Assembly (NCBI GenBank): GCA_937877125.1
Contig: CALEFQ010000054.1
Span: 1-8,171 of the forward strand
Origin: an uncultured bacterium
GTDB lineage: Bacteria; Patescibacteriota; CALEFQ01
Direction of reading: 5' to 3'
Length of the DNA: 8,171 nt
Shown here one piece after another: positions 2,592-8,171 of this stretch. The translations under genes were made by a program, and so were the position numbers. The notes under the pieces were generated by a model. That model made no database searches and was not told where the DNA came from. It was given only the letters and a program-made list of their open reading frames with translations. The stretch's first letter is position 1; the number at the start of each line of letters is the position of its first letter.

Positions 2592-2613
2592 AAAACCCCT
2601 TTTCAGGGGTTTT
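2592..2613 (-). terminator. Rho-independent-type terminator after tRNA-Asn
   Basis: A perfect 9-bp hairpin: on the minus strand AAAACCCCT, a GAAA tetraloop, then AGGGGTTTT. The four Ts of the stem act as the U-run, and the mirror arrangement would also work on the plus strand. It sits about 80 bases downstream of the tRNA-Asn 3' end and about 120 bases upstream of the HAD-like gene. It therefore separates the tRNA region from the four-gene operon. Confidence 0.7.
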
Positions 2614-2690
2614 TCGATGCTGTTCACTCGAACTAATTTTTTGGGCTGTGCTTAGCGAAAATTTGTATTCAAAGACAAATAAAAATTCGT

Positions 2691-2765
2691 TGGCTCCCCG
2701 GGCAGGGCTCGAACCTGCAACATCCTCGTTAACAGCGAGGCGCTCTACCATTGAGCTACCGGGGA
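2691..2765 (-). tRNA. tRNA-Asn(GTT)
   Basis: A complete cloverleaf on the minus strand. The acceptor stem TCCCCGG pairs with CCGGGGA, the D-arm is GCTC/GAGC with a normal GG in its loop, and the anticodon stem CCTCG/CGAGG holds the loop CTGTTAA (anticodon GTT). The T-arm GCAGG/CCTGC carries loop TTCGAGC. The discriminator is G73 and CCA is encoded (2691-2693). Two partial copies of its 5' half lie directly upstream. Confidence 0.96.
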
Positions 2766-2783
2766 ATAATTAATTTCTAAATT

Positions 2784-2841
2784 GTTAACAGCGAGGCGCT
2801 CCCTGCCTACCAGCAGGCAGGTACCATTGAGCTACTGGGGA
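2784..2841 (-). pseudogene. tRNA-Asn 5'-half duplicate (copy adjacent to intact tRNA)
   Basis: This repeats the 5' half of tRNA-Asn(GTT): acceptor 5' strand (with one change, CCCCAG for CCCCGG), D-arm, 5' anticodon stem and the whole anticodon loop. The T-arm and 3' acceptor strand are missing. A 20-bp palindrome interrupts it between the D-loop and the 3' D-stem strand. It cannot form a tRNA. Its first bases also serve as the end of the GIY-YIG gene that lies upstream. Confidence 0.85.
2802..2821. repeat. 20-bp palindromic insertion, copy 1
   Basis: CCTGCCTACCAGCAGGCAGG on the plus strand, with CCTGCC/GGCAGG arms. It interrupts the tRNA-Asn 5'-half copy and differs from the second copy (3117-3136) at one base. 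It resembles short GC-rich palindromes scattered between genes in many Parcubacteria-type genomes (from general knowledge, not searched). Confidence 0.8.
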
Positions 2842-3086
2842 AGAATAATCGCCTTTATAAATTGTTTGCCGCAACCACTTTTATAATACTTCTCTCGTTT
2901 TCTGGCAAGTTGCCTTGGACCTAAAAACTCTTGATATACCAACTTCCAAGGACGATATCCCTTGGTTGAAAAAACTTGACCACCATTATGTGCTCTTAAA
3001 CGTTTAGTTATATTTCTAGACATCCCAACATATAAGCGCCCATCTTGAGCACTCTTTATAACGTAAACGCTAAACCCTCCTTCCAT
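2832..3086 (-). CDS. GIY-YIG domain protein trapped between tRNA-Asn fragments
   Basis: An 84-residue stand-alone GIY-YIG nuclease-fold protein. The two signature strands are VYV (7-9) and YVG (19-21), followed by the NITKRL helix with Arg29, the segment FSTKGYRPWKLVY, and the presumed catalytic Glu65 in ARKREKYYKSGCGK. UvrC and the YhbQ/URI families share this fold, and homing enzymes such as I-TevI use it to nick DNA. The gene lies between two 55-bp direct repeats derived from tRNA-Asn. Its last codons and TAG stop are the first bases of the nearer tRNA fragment; the stop equals tRNA positions T8-A9-G10. The start is odd: the only ATG has no upstream ribosome site, while a strong AAGGAGGG lies inside the first codons. 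Sister genes in this window begin their homology right after such a site. The original start codon may have been lost. Confidence 0.85.
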   Translation of the reverse strand: MEGGFSVYVIKSAQDGRLYVGMSRNITKRLRAHNGGQVFSTKGYRPWKLVYQEFLGPRQLARKREKYYKSGCGKQFIKAIILPQ

Positions 3087-3101
3087 ATTTTTTAAACTAT
3101 C

Positions 3102-3156
3102 AACAGCGAGGCGCTCCCTGCCTACCGGCAGGCAGGTACCATTGAGCTACCGGGGA
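3102..3156 (-). pseudogene. tRNA-Asn 5'-half duplicate (distal copy)
   Basis: A second tRNA-Asn(GTT) 5' half with the same 20-bp palindrome at the same D-arm position. It differs from the copy at 2787-2841 at only two of 55 bases, and its acceptor strand is identical to the intact tRNA. It even shares the GGGGAATAAT plus-strand flank of the intact gene. Homology stops immediately after the anticodon GTT. With the other copy it forms 315-bp-spaced direct repeats around the GIY-YIG gene. Confidence 0.85.
3117..3136. repeat. 20-bp palindromic insertion, copy 2
   Basis: CCTGCCTACCGGCAGGCAGG on the plus strand, one mismatch pair away from a perfect 20-bp palindrome. Position and orientation inside the tRNA fragment are identical to copy 1. 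The insertion therefore came before the duplication. Confidence 0.8.
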
Positions 3157-3162
3157 ATAATG

Positions 3163-3272
3163 AATAAGATATTAAGAATTTAAGATATTAAGAAAATTAA
3201 GAGTTTGGAGGAAAAGGCGAATGATTAATAAGATATTAAGAGCATTAAGACATTAAGAGTTTGGAGGAATAA
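3163..3272 (+). repeat. two AT-rich leader-like repeats ending in GGAGGA
   Basis: Two tandem, imperfect copies (about 3163-3214 and 3222-3269) of short words such as GATATTAAGA, each ending in GAGTTTGGAGGAA and soon followed by an ATG. They look like the leader and ribosome binding site of the four-helix-bundle gene but point the opposite way. The ATGs open only tiny frames (about 11 and 23 codons), which I do not call as genes. Together they form the downstream arm of inverted repeats around that gene. Confidence 0.6.
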
Positions 3273-3277
3273 GAATG

Positions 3278-3655
3278 TCAGAGAGTATCACGTACCTTTT
3301 TTATCATCGAAGCGATAATGCGAGTGATTTGCTCGCTTTCAGATAATAATTCTTCTAAGCGGTGGCTGTCAACCATTTCCAGTTTCTGCAATATATCAAG
3401 CCAATATATCGTTTCATTGGCTTCTTTCAGAGCGATAGTAGCGGAACTAAGAAAATCCTTTTTAGAGCGATTAATTCTGGCCTCGGTCAAATTTGAGCCG
3501 ATCGCTCCGGCGGATCTGATAACCTGATCCCCCACCGAAAATCGCACCGATCCCGGGGGCAAACTACTGATTAGGCGAACAACCGATACCACCAACCGCT
3601 TGGATCTTTCCACGATATCATTTTCTTTTGAATACTGACAATAAACCCTCCTCAT
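3278..3655 (-). CDS. four-helix-bundle protein (23S rRNA intervening-sequence family)
   Basis: A 125-residue, mostly helical protein of the four-helix-bundle family first named from ORFs inside 23S rRNA intervening sequences, and structurally related to Avd of diversity-generating retroelements. The diagnostic block is residues 46-69: VIRSAGAIGSNLTEARINRSKKDF, split here as VIRSAGAIGSN and LTEARINRSKKDF, followed by IALKEANETIYWLDIL (74-89). The role is unknown; a small basic nucleic-acid-associated oligomer is the usual guess. The start is fixed by a GAGGAGG site at 3660-3666 four bases from the ATG. It lies 65 bp downstream of rpoD with no terminator between. It is enclosed by inverted copies of its own leader (3231-3257 and 3683-3709), an arrangement reminiscent of the stem that closes rRNA intervening sequences. 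It ends in TGA. Confidence 0.88.
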   Translation of the reverse strand: MRRVYCQYSKENDIVERSKRLVVSVVRLISSLPPGSVRFSVGDQVIRSAGAIGSNLTEARINRSKKDFLSSATIALKEANETIYWLDILQKLEMVDSHRLEELLSESEQITRIIASMIKKVRDTL

Positions 3656-3656
3656 A

Positions 3657-3719
3657 TTTCCTCCTCTTAATATTCTTAATTTCTTAATATCTTAATACTC
3701 TTAATATCTTAATATCTTT
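3657..3719 (-). repeat. AT-rich leader of the four-helix-bundle gene, inverted-repeat arm
   Basis: On the minus strand this is an array of ATTAAGA-type words running into the GAGGAGG ribosome site of the four-helix-bundle gene. Its 27-bp core (3683-3709) matches 3231-3257 in inverted orientation at 25 of 27 positions, so the gene sits in the loop of a potential long stem. It fills the whole gap to the rpoD stop codon. No GC-rich terminator is seen in it. Confidence 0.65.
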
Positions 3720-3720
3720 T

Positions 3721-5013
<1,293 letters not shown>

Positions 5014-7145: not shown

Positions 7146-7223
7146 TGGTCGGGGCGGAGAGATTCGAACTCTCGATCTCATGCACCCCATGCATGCGCCT
7201 TAGACCAGCTGGGCCACGCCCCG
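7146..7223 (-). tRNA. tRNA-Pro(GGG)
   Basis: A complete cloverleaf on the minus strand. Acceptor CGGGGCG pairs with CGCCCCG, giving the C1-G72 pair typical of bacterial tRNA-Pro. The D-loop AGCTGGTCTA has the usual GG. Anticodon stem CATGC/GCATG holds loop ATGGGGT (anticodon GGG, G37). The T-arm GAGAG/CTCTC has the normal loop TTCGAAT. A73 and an encoded CCA (7146-7148) follow, and the CCA runs straight into repeat copy A. Confidence 0.95.
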
Positions 7224-7262
7224 AGGGTGCTTCATATTGAAATTCACGCGAACTATAAAGTA

Positions 7263-7523
7263 TTACCGGATCGGTTTGCCATATTTTATTAGATTCTCTT
7301 TCTTTTCTCGCCGCCAGCTCTTAATCTGATTCTCGCGTTTCTTAGCTTCTATAAAATCGCCGTATATCTCGTAATAAACCAATCTTATCGGGAGCTTATT
7401 CTTAGTGTATAAGCACCCACTACCACATTGGTGGTCAACGATTCTTCGTCTTAAGTTCTTAGTAAATCCAATATATAAATCACCGTCTCGGCAGCGAAGA
7501 ATATAAACAAAATATTTCTTCAT
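7263..7523 (-). CDS. GIY-YIG domain protein (YhbQ-like) upstream of tRNA-Pro(GGG)
   Basis: An 86-residue GIY-YIG protein starting at MKKYFVYILRCRDG. I prefer this start over one 13 codons upstream because an AGGAGGG site (7526-7532) sits just before it and the longer form would reach into a dispersed repeat. Signature strands are VYI (6-8) and YIG (17-19). Then come NLRRRIVDH with Arg25-27 and His31, and the presumed catalytic Glu64 in AKKRENQIKSWRREKKENLI. That last block is typical of the YhbQ/UPF0213 group and differs from the EKYFKTGSGK type of the other two genes here. The two subgroups thus share the same genomic setting. Its stop lies 39 bases before the tRNA 5' end on the same strand. 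A nicking or repair nuclease activity is inferred from the fold only. Confidence 0.88.
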   Translation of the reverse strand: MKKYFVYILRCRDGDLYIGFTKNLRRRIVDHQCGSGCLYTKNKLPIRLVYYEIYGDFIEAKKRENQIKSWRREKKENLIKYGKPIR

Positions 7524-7542
7524 GGCCCTCCTAAAATCGTTG

Positions 7543-7655
7543 TCCTTCGACTCCCCCGCCAAAGGCGGGTTCGCTCAGGACTAGTGCTAATCACCTTCTT
7601 AGCAGCACCTCCACCCTGAGTAAGCTCCGAACGAAGTGAGGAGCGCATCGAAGGG
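7543..7655. repeat. dispersed hairpin repeat, copy B, at the 3' end of tRNA-Pro(CGG)
   Basis: The second copy of the repeat seen at 7001-7145, without the 30-base extra block. It contains a separate small hairpin, CCCGCC/GGCGGG, near 7555-7569. The CCACCCT...AGGGTGG part (7611-7658) again ends on the complement of the tRNA CCA. It lies between the GIY-YIG gene start (7523) and the tRNA-Pro(CGG) 3' end. No gene seen. Confidence 0.75.
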
Positions 7656-7732
7656 TGGTCGGGGTGGTGGGATTCGCACCCACGATCTCTGCGACCCGAA
7701 CGCAGCGCCTTGGACTACTGGGCCACACCCCG
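7656..7732 (-). tRNA. tRNA-Pro(CGG) with unusual D- and T-loops
   Basis: The cloverleaf on the minus strand has acceptor CGGGGTG/CACCCCG, anticodon stem CTGCG/CGCAG with loop TTCGGGT (anticodon CGG, G37), T-stem GTGGG/CCCAC, A73 and encoded CCA (7656-7658). Two conserved loop positions are altered. The T-loop reads TGCGAAT, so position 55 is G rather than U. The D-loop AGTAGTCCA lacks the G18-G19 pair of bases. Its first 18 bases overlap the end of the upstream GIY-YIG gene. Confidence 0.93.
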
Positions 7733-8017
7733 ACTACGGCCTAACCGAGGAATCTCATACGAAAATATTTGCTCTAATTGTAAAATTCGCTTTTTAAGGA
7801 TCGCTTTGCCGGAACCGGTCTTGAAATATTTTTCTAGCTTCCTCGCTCTGCCTTCGCCGCACACCAAGATCGCCGAAATAATTTTCCAAGGTCGATAACA
7901 CTTGGTCGCCAAGCAAAAACCGTTATTATGATGCCACAACCTTCGCTGTAGATTATTGGTAGAACCAATATAGATCTGGTTGTTCATCTCACTTAAGATG
8001 ATATAAACACACCACAT
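7715..8017 (-). CDS. GIY-YIG domain protein overlapping tRNA-Pro(CGG)
   Basis: A 100-residue GIY-YIG protein. An AGGAGGG site (8020-8026) two bases before the ATG fixes the start, and MWCVYIILS begins directly with the first signature strand. VYI is at 4-6 and YIG at 16-18, followed by NNLQRRLWHH (Arg25/26, His29/30), then YRPWKI. The presumed catalytic Glu62 lies in RKLEKYFKTGSGKAILKKRI, the same subtype as the gene at 2832-3086. The core ends near residue 78, and a tail of about 22 residues continues into the tRNA. Codons 96-100 (RGVAQ) and the TAG are exactly the first 18 bases of tRNA-Pro(CGG). The overlap may mean the gene was captured or inserted next to the tRNA and ran on to the first available stop. 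Nuclease function is inferred from the fold. Confidence 0.87.
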   Translation of the reverse strand: MWCVYIILSEMNNQIYIGSTNNLQRRLWHHNNGFCLATKCYRPWKIISAILVCGEGRARKLEKYFKTGSGKAILKKRILQLEQIFSYEIPRLGRSRGVAQ

Positions 8018-8081: not shown

Positions 8082-8171
8082 TGGCCTGCCAGACGAAGCC
8101 TGTGAAACGAGCGAACTGTGGCCTGCCAGACGAAGCCTGTGAAACGAGTGAAGTGTGGCCTGCCAGACGAA
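8082..8171. repeat. 37-bp direct tandem repeat, cut by window edge
   Basis: Units begin at 8082, 8119 and 8156, each with TGGCCTGCCAGACGAA; the second half reads GCCTGTGAAACGAG then a slightly variable end. The first two units differ at two bases and the third is truncated by the window. Units follow each other with no spacers. The GCCTGCC core is related in style to the GC-rich palindromes elsewhere in the window. Confidence 0.85.

Follow-up and report, generated by a model that had tools for sequence, protein, structure and literature searches.

A small GIY-YIG gene between partial copies of tRNA-Asn: a likely homing-like cassette at tRNA genes

Introduction

How did a gene for a small nuclease-like protein come to lie between two partial copies of a tRNA-Asn gene, beside an intact one? 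This question is raised by the window, as we call the whole stretch of 8,171 nucleotides analysed here, and the first-pass annotation had answered it with a cassette that duplicated the 5′ half of its tRNA target while one complete tRNA was kept. The top matches of the DnaG protein of the window were mostly 43–45% identical and came mostly from MAGs named as Patescibacteria lineages, which makes a Patescibacterium the likely host. The sampled phylum is likely Patescibacteria, and was taken so since the sample includes a genome (G001) of a Parcubacteria MAG.

The tRNA-Asn locus in the window

The elements are all located on the minus strand, in the order copy A (3156–3102), GIY-YIG gene (3086–2832), copy B (2841–2787) and intact tRNA-Asn(GTT) (2765–2691). 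Two 55-nt repeats bracketing a small GIY-YIG gene beside an intact tRNA-Asn were confirmed, with 2 of 55 bases mismatched and a spacing of 315 bp, and a longer repeat family (D2) had 76 nt and 89% identity. The repeats had been described as 5′ halves of tRNA-Asn; through sequence comparison, 35 of the 55 nt in each copy were found to be tRNA-Asn positions 1–35, but the other 20 nt form a palindrome inserted into the D-loop. Copy A is a displaced 5′ part with this hairpin insert at 3117–3136, and copy B is a second 5′ part with the palindrome at 2802–2821, differing from that of A by one base. The palindrome interrupts each copy after tRNA position 20, which is the end of the D-loop, and a pattern scan of the window allowing one error found it at A and B only. 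The gene, encoding 84 amino acids with a predicted Slx1/UPF0213-like fold, was annotated as filling the interval; it does lie between the copies but overlaps copy B, of which positions 8–10 form its stop codon TAG (2832–2834).

In the region upstream of the gene, none of 36 tRNAs of other isotypes matched equally well; because of this, and because the pattern recurs in other genomes, the arrangement is considered beyond chance. The GIY-YIG gene is the sole ORF of the 315-bp unit, and an integrase-borne island was rejected, since the unit contains no recombinase such as marks an integrase-type element targeting tRNA genes.

Copy B is followed by 21 nt, with no gene between, and then by the true tRNA-Asn. 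It occupies the place of a rebuilt tRNA, yet it has the palindrome, and from this we infer a second round of insertion. Copy B is probably the former rebuilt tRNA of the present gene, displaced later; at least two rounds would then have occurred, the first leaving copy A with the present gene and the next entering copy B, whose nuclease gene would have been lost. The palindrome in each duplicated part and the place of copy B had both been missed by the earlier cassette proposal.

Other features were also observed in the window. A further GIY-YIG gene (7715–8017) has its stop inside tRNA-Pro(CGG), and another (7263–7523) is located between tRNA-Pro(CGG) and tRNA-Pro(GGG); the spacer before the latter gene contains a sequence repeated after tRNA-Pro(GGG) (region 7146–8017). 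The displaced-copy test described below revealed no displaced tRNA-Pro part at either gene. Between rpoD and the cassette lies a four-helix-bundle gene (3165–3714; 23S IVP, PF05635) flanked by A+T-rich inverted repeats, and two tandem 37-nt repeats with 95% identity are located at the window end (8082–8155).

Samples and classification of loci

Two samples of distinct GIY-YIG genes were analysed, sample A with 153 and sample B with 109 genes (262 in total; a later recount, with few loci added, gave 263). They were built from the best matches of longer lists, with 80 regions chosen per list and further loci around matches, and the loci were taken around dnaG and GIY-YIG matches. Sample B was obtained through a class-I protein profile and shares genomes with sample A; it was therefore treated as a replication and not as an independent draw. 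ORFs of at least 260 aa, matches above E 1e-3 to the profile built in this analysis and repeated identical genes were left out before the counts; for the trees, which contained 152 and 259 rows, proteins under 60 aa were also left out.

Class I comprises genes whose stop is followed within 150 bp by a tRNA on the same strand, and class II those with a tRNA or tmRNA upstream of the gene. One locus (L335) resembles class I and was missed by the 150-bp rule. A displaced copy was accepted when no other isotype gave an equal score, at least 14 nt were aligned and the gap was below 110 nt. These conditions removed L171, where the match was a whole neighbouring tRNA, and L095 passed with a divergent copy free of insert. 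In the matched control, the first 45 nt of each tRNA was compared with the 600 nt upstream, with 40 mismatched tRNAs and a score of at least 28.

Recurrence at tRNA genes

Of the 262 small GIY-YIG genes, 87 belong to class I, directly 5′ of a same-strand tRNA. Sample A contained 43 class I, 21 class II, 2 opposite-strand and 87 other genes, and sample B contained 44, 26, 1 and 38, respectively. For comparison, a random stranded position has a same-strand tRNA within −40 to +150 in about 0.65% of cases. The strand was the same in 65 genes and opposite in 2 when sample A was scored without strand preference; for both samples the numbers were 134 and 3 under a scoring that prefers same-strand downstream tRNAs.

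The class-I genes adjoin tRNAs of 18 isotypes and 33 anticodons. Their stops are concentrated at the tRNA start, 74 of 87 lying between −36 and +30, and the tRNA itself contains the stop codon in 33 of 87, in 14 of them as a TAG at positions 8–10, like that in copy B of the window. A Shine-Dalgarno-like 5-mer within 20 nt was found before only seven of the 87 genes. The ORFs are free-standing, in neither intron nor intein, and the adjoining tRNA genes may be their targets.

The class-I protein profile matched 272 of 379 genomes from the phylum of G003, and many genomes had several matches; such a match is not equal to a tRNA cassette, and many of the matched genes in both samples had no adjoining tRNA.

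The class II genes of sample A (21 loci, for example L139, L156, L167, L202, L096 and L143) are located 20–232 nt on the 3′ side of tRNAs or tmRNA; a long spacer precedes some of the genes, and some are followed by a 3′ tRNA part. Two of them at different tRNA-Gln genes of one genome (L139 and L156) were 96.5% identical over 343 nt, and two copies in one genome (L167 and L202) were 78% identical. Two genomes contained GIY-YIG genes inside 23S rRNA genes (L084, L089), and at L251 three GIY-YIG matches clustered with no adjoining tRNA, some of which may be pieces of one broken gene.

The displaced tRNA part and its insert

Upstream of the gene, a 5′ part of the adjoining tRNA was found in displaced form at 57 of the 87 class-I loci (sample A, 33 of 43; sample B, 24 of 44), with a mean identity of 96% to the tRNA. 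It begins at tRNA position 1 in 48 of 57 and ends at varied positions (14–60); therefore no single cut site is indicated, which counts against a cassette. The gene starts at most 20 nt from the displaced part in 45 of 57, the ATG being at a median of 11 nt past its end, and the repeat unit has a median of 344 bp (range 279–498). The test revealed no displaced copy at the other 30 of the 87 genes, including the two GIY-YIG genes at tRNA-Pro in the window, and this also counts against a cassette.

In the matched control, a displaced part was present at 51 of 85 class-I tRNAs but at 6 of 86 tRNAs lacking a GIY-YIG gene within 900 bp (Fisher p 3e-14), and at 12 of 96 tRNAs that have one nearby outside class I; 51/85 and 57/87 are different measures, because the control used a somewhat different test.

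These numbers bear on ordinary decay of tRNA arrays, in which the fragments would be remains of tRNA copies broken long ago, and the GIY-YIG gene would have landed beside them. A whole neighbouring tRNA did give one false positive (L171), and two fragments without gene (L018, L069) have no insert by eye and could come from plain array decay. Against this stand the 96% identity, the start at position 1 in 48 of 57, the closeness to the ATG in 45 of 57 and the rarity of such parts where the gene is absent. Plain array decay was set aside on the matched control and appears extremely improbable. Fragments without the gene had been named beforehand as an observation that would speak against a cassette, and this was borne out in part, at the 6 of 86 tRNAs; of the six, L006, L009 and L010 showed a palindrome-like insert by eye, and L012 showed one just past the match.

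Inserts of at least 8 nt were found in 46 of 57 displaced parts. Of 54 insert positions, 35 were in the D or anticodon loop, compared with 43.8% expected for any loop (p 0.001), which is a modest signal. The coupling of insert and end was stronger: at 46 loci the median distance from the last insert to the end of the displaced part was 12 nt, with a standard deviation of 5.6 versus 9.9 at random, although such a coupling would also result if parts were truncated where a tRNA arm ends. In sample A, 24 of 32 inserts had a folding z below −2, and insert sequences differed between many loci. A dispersed double hairpin, TCCGCCnnnGGCGGATCAGCC (at most one mismatch), was observed at 21 sites in genome G105 and at none in 6 of 11 genomes; in G005, a hairpin of this type had one site, 33–53 nt before a GIY-YIG match, in a displaced tRNA-Asn part.

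The palindrome-bearing tRNA 5′ part might itself be the moving or duplicating unit (palindromic, MITE-like or by slippage), with the GIY-YIG gene as passenger or occasional partner. Parts located 9–75 nt before a tRNA with no gene between (L006, L009, L010, L157, L199 and L240, by eye among 10 loci), copy B of the window before its intact tRNA and the dispersal of one hairpin type in G105, though it is absent from 6 of 11 genomes, all favour this explanation. It fits poorly with displaced parts being far commoner where the gene is present (51/85 versus 6/86), with a gene apparently under purifying selection and with the fixed order and strand, and we regard it as improbable. Palindrome-bearing parts without gene do exist and count against the cassette; they fit relics of lost cassettes, or could be a separate non-autonomous unit.

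Sites with and without the gene

In many relatives rpoD is followed by tRNA-Asn, and inspection of their tRNA-Asn loci, as the first-pass annotation had suggested, did reveal both occupied and gene-free sites. Of the 74 rpoD loci, 31 had an uninterrupted tRNA-Asn within 1 kb; 28 of these contained no GIY-YIG gene and 3 contained one, in a comparison between species only. One of the 28 (L009) has the fragment without gene mentioned above. Searches for empty sites in the same genus returned only the query genomes.

Between an empty site (L030) and an occupied one (L034), the flank from rpoD onward is conserved. A promoter-like sequence TTGCCA-17-TATACT (10 of 12) precedes the tRNA in L030 and the displaced copy in L034. 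From the first base through GGAGCC the two tRNAs do not differ, and the rebuilt half in L034 is thus not visibly foreign. No convincing promoter was found before copy A of the window: the region 2600–3750 contained 4 minus-strand matches versus 2.3 in shuffles, and the nearest one sits inside the neighbouring four-helix-bundle gene. All these promoter-like sites are consensus matches and not evidence of function.

L002 is, like the window, an occupied rpoD site, and its tRNA-Asn contains an intron. In L002 (4849–5141), L008 and L331 the tRNA-Asn is interrupted at the anticodon by an intron, that of L002 matching group I with E 4e-11 and 48.5 bits, slightly short of the 50-bit cut-off; L002 and L331 have a class-I GIY-YIG gene besides. 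Twelve loci (L005, L024, L025, L031, L033, L041, L042, L053, L056, L063, L064 and L072) showed no plain tRNA-Asn near rpoD; the intron-bearing tRNAs called there were labelled tRNA-Thr(tgt), which may be a wrong name for tRNA-Asn with an intron. The L002 intron (ARAGORN) lies in the neighbouring tRNA with the ORF outside, and an intron-borne nuclease was rejected, as the introns observed lie in the tRNA and the ORF outside.

The GIY-YIG protein

The window protein matched Pfam PF01541 with 53.3 bits (cut-off 22.6), and the catalytic Y, Y-G, R and E that mark the GIY-YIG superfamily are present. All 87 class-I proteins have Y8, Y19, G21, R29 and H33, and 86 have E65 (L103 is without E). dN/dS was computable in three of nine pairs and gave 0.13–0.22 at a dS of 1.7–1.9, near saturation; judged from these alignments, the gene looks to be under purifying selection.

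The AlphaFold2 model was confident (pLDDT 94). Profile matches among solved structures were UPF0213 (1e-16), SLX1 (2e-7) and I-TevI (0.0014), and Foldseek placed Slx1 and UPF0213 on top, a single match falling below E 0.001. With its 84 aa the protein is a bare domain, closest to Slx1/UPF0213 and weakly similar to I-TevI, which counts against a homing-like cassette.

On the protein tree, class labels and isotypes cluster, with few alignment columns. Isotype changes numbered 57 versus 65.1 when shuffled (none of 300 shuffles as low), and the nearest class-I protein from another locus had the same isotype in 22 of 87 cases versus 7.8% expected. This clustering could come from vertical inheritance at one tRNA.

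The conserved catalytic residues, the co-orientation and the stop overlapping the tRNA in 33 of 87 would also suit a domesticated tRNA-linked gene that is not mobile at present and whose leader and nuclease act in the processing of tRNA or other RNA. Such a gene would hardly be so patchy at the same locus (3 of 31), occur at 18 isotypes, give several matches per genome in many genomes and have near-identical class-II units at different loci, and domestication is therefore considered very unlikely.

Proposed insertion into tRNA genes

Taking together the gene order, the duplication, the gene-free sites, the isotype persistence and the conserved nuclease, we favour the GIY-YIG unit of the window as a homing-like mobile cassette of about 350 bp. 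It likely inserts into tRNA genes and leaves a complete tRNA downstream. The cassette proposed by the first-pass annotation has thus gained from its recurrence at 18 isotypes and from the gene-free sites.

The nuclease might break a cassette-free tRNA gene near one loop, and repair from a cassette-bearing copy would install the gene, guided by the tRNA sequence common to cassette and target. The old 5′ part would end up upstream of the gene and the tRNA would be completed downstream. The tRNA's own promoter could then drive one transcript, from which tRNA processing would free the tRNA. The inserts may mark the insertion point, and perhaps block recutting, recombination or the tRNA folding of the displaced copy. 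The rebuilt tRNA still carries the presumed target, and this counts against the cassette.

A further speculation, doubtful as it is, is that such units form a new class of minimal mobile elements across Patescibacteria. In it, a bare Slx1-like nuclease would act on folded single-stranded DNA at tRNA loops, and the hairpin-bearing tRNA part would be the element's own address and recombination site; the target would be picked by tRNA sequence and not by a protein recognition domain, and the tRNA rebuilt at each jump. If this structure-directed reading is true, the hairpin copies without gene would be non-autonomous partners.

The cassette, if true, would explain several small GIY-YIG genes beside tRNAs in many sampled Patescibacteria genomes, as a very small mobile unit composed of one domain and a borrowed tRNA part. 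It would be an example from nature of essential RNA genes that receive insertions without losing the RNA, and would make target finding by bare GIY-YIG domains a testable question.

Comparison with known systems

No title on GIY-YIG cassettes at Patescibacteria tRNA genes was found among the matches listed in the open-access literature, a search with most subscription journals and bioRxiv outside it. As far as the accessible text of each goes, a Patescibacteria gene-transfer study includes a GIY-YIG protein among genes predicted as donated to other bacteria (PMC12455944), and a study of phage nuclease genes covers phage GIY-YIG genes and contains no tRNA cassettes (PMC10448857).

UPF0213 and Slx1 resemble the cassette protein most closely, being the best sequence matches among solved structures and the best fold matches. 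In the CPR, rRNA insertions carry GIY-YIG genes, most insertions being at tops or bases of stem-loops (PMC11270868); they share the broad bacterial group, the domain and the structural RNA genes as location. That paper differs in that "tRNA" is absent from its main text, as available, and that homing by GIY-YIG proteins is doubted; its judgement that these genes are outside homing spread counts against the cassette (PMC11270868).

The accessible text on SegB of phages T4 and T6 describes a GIY-YIG gene enriched beside tRNA genes, with cleavage peaks within tRNA genes and local amplification (PMC13096335). The linkage of a GIY-YIG nuclease with tRNA genes is alike, by description and not by sequence. 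SegB differs in being phage-borne, and no isotype preference or displaced 5′ part is described in that text (PMC13096335). A phage origin of the cassettes was set aside: no relatives were found in viral contigs (one protein, close relatives only), and phage records matched cassette proteins weakly. Phage homing-endonuclease families matched some of 29 members and not the window protein.

The mobile ORFs of fungal mitochondria (Allomyces atp6; Glomus atp6, atp9, cox2 and nad3) are similar in arrangement, as far as described in the available text: an endonuclease ORF lies in a gene, part of which is duplicated, the complete gene is kept and the old part remains beyond the ORF (PMC3630166). Such a duplicated target part beside a complete gene was found here at 57 of 87 loci. 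The fungal ORFs are at the 3′ end of protein genes, whereas the cassettes are at the 5′ end of tRNA genes, and the displaced part of the cassettes, unlike that of the fungal ORFs, usually has an insert. The rebuilt part of the fungal genes reads as foreign, but here restored and displaced parts are 96% identical and the rebuilt tRNA of L034 equals that of its empty relative, with the donor outside the comparison; this difference counts against the cassette. On our best reading by analogy, the cassette would be akin to the fungal mitochondrial mobile ORFs and to phage SegB.
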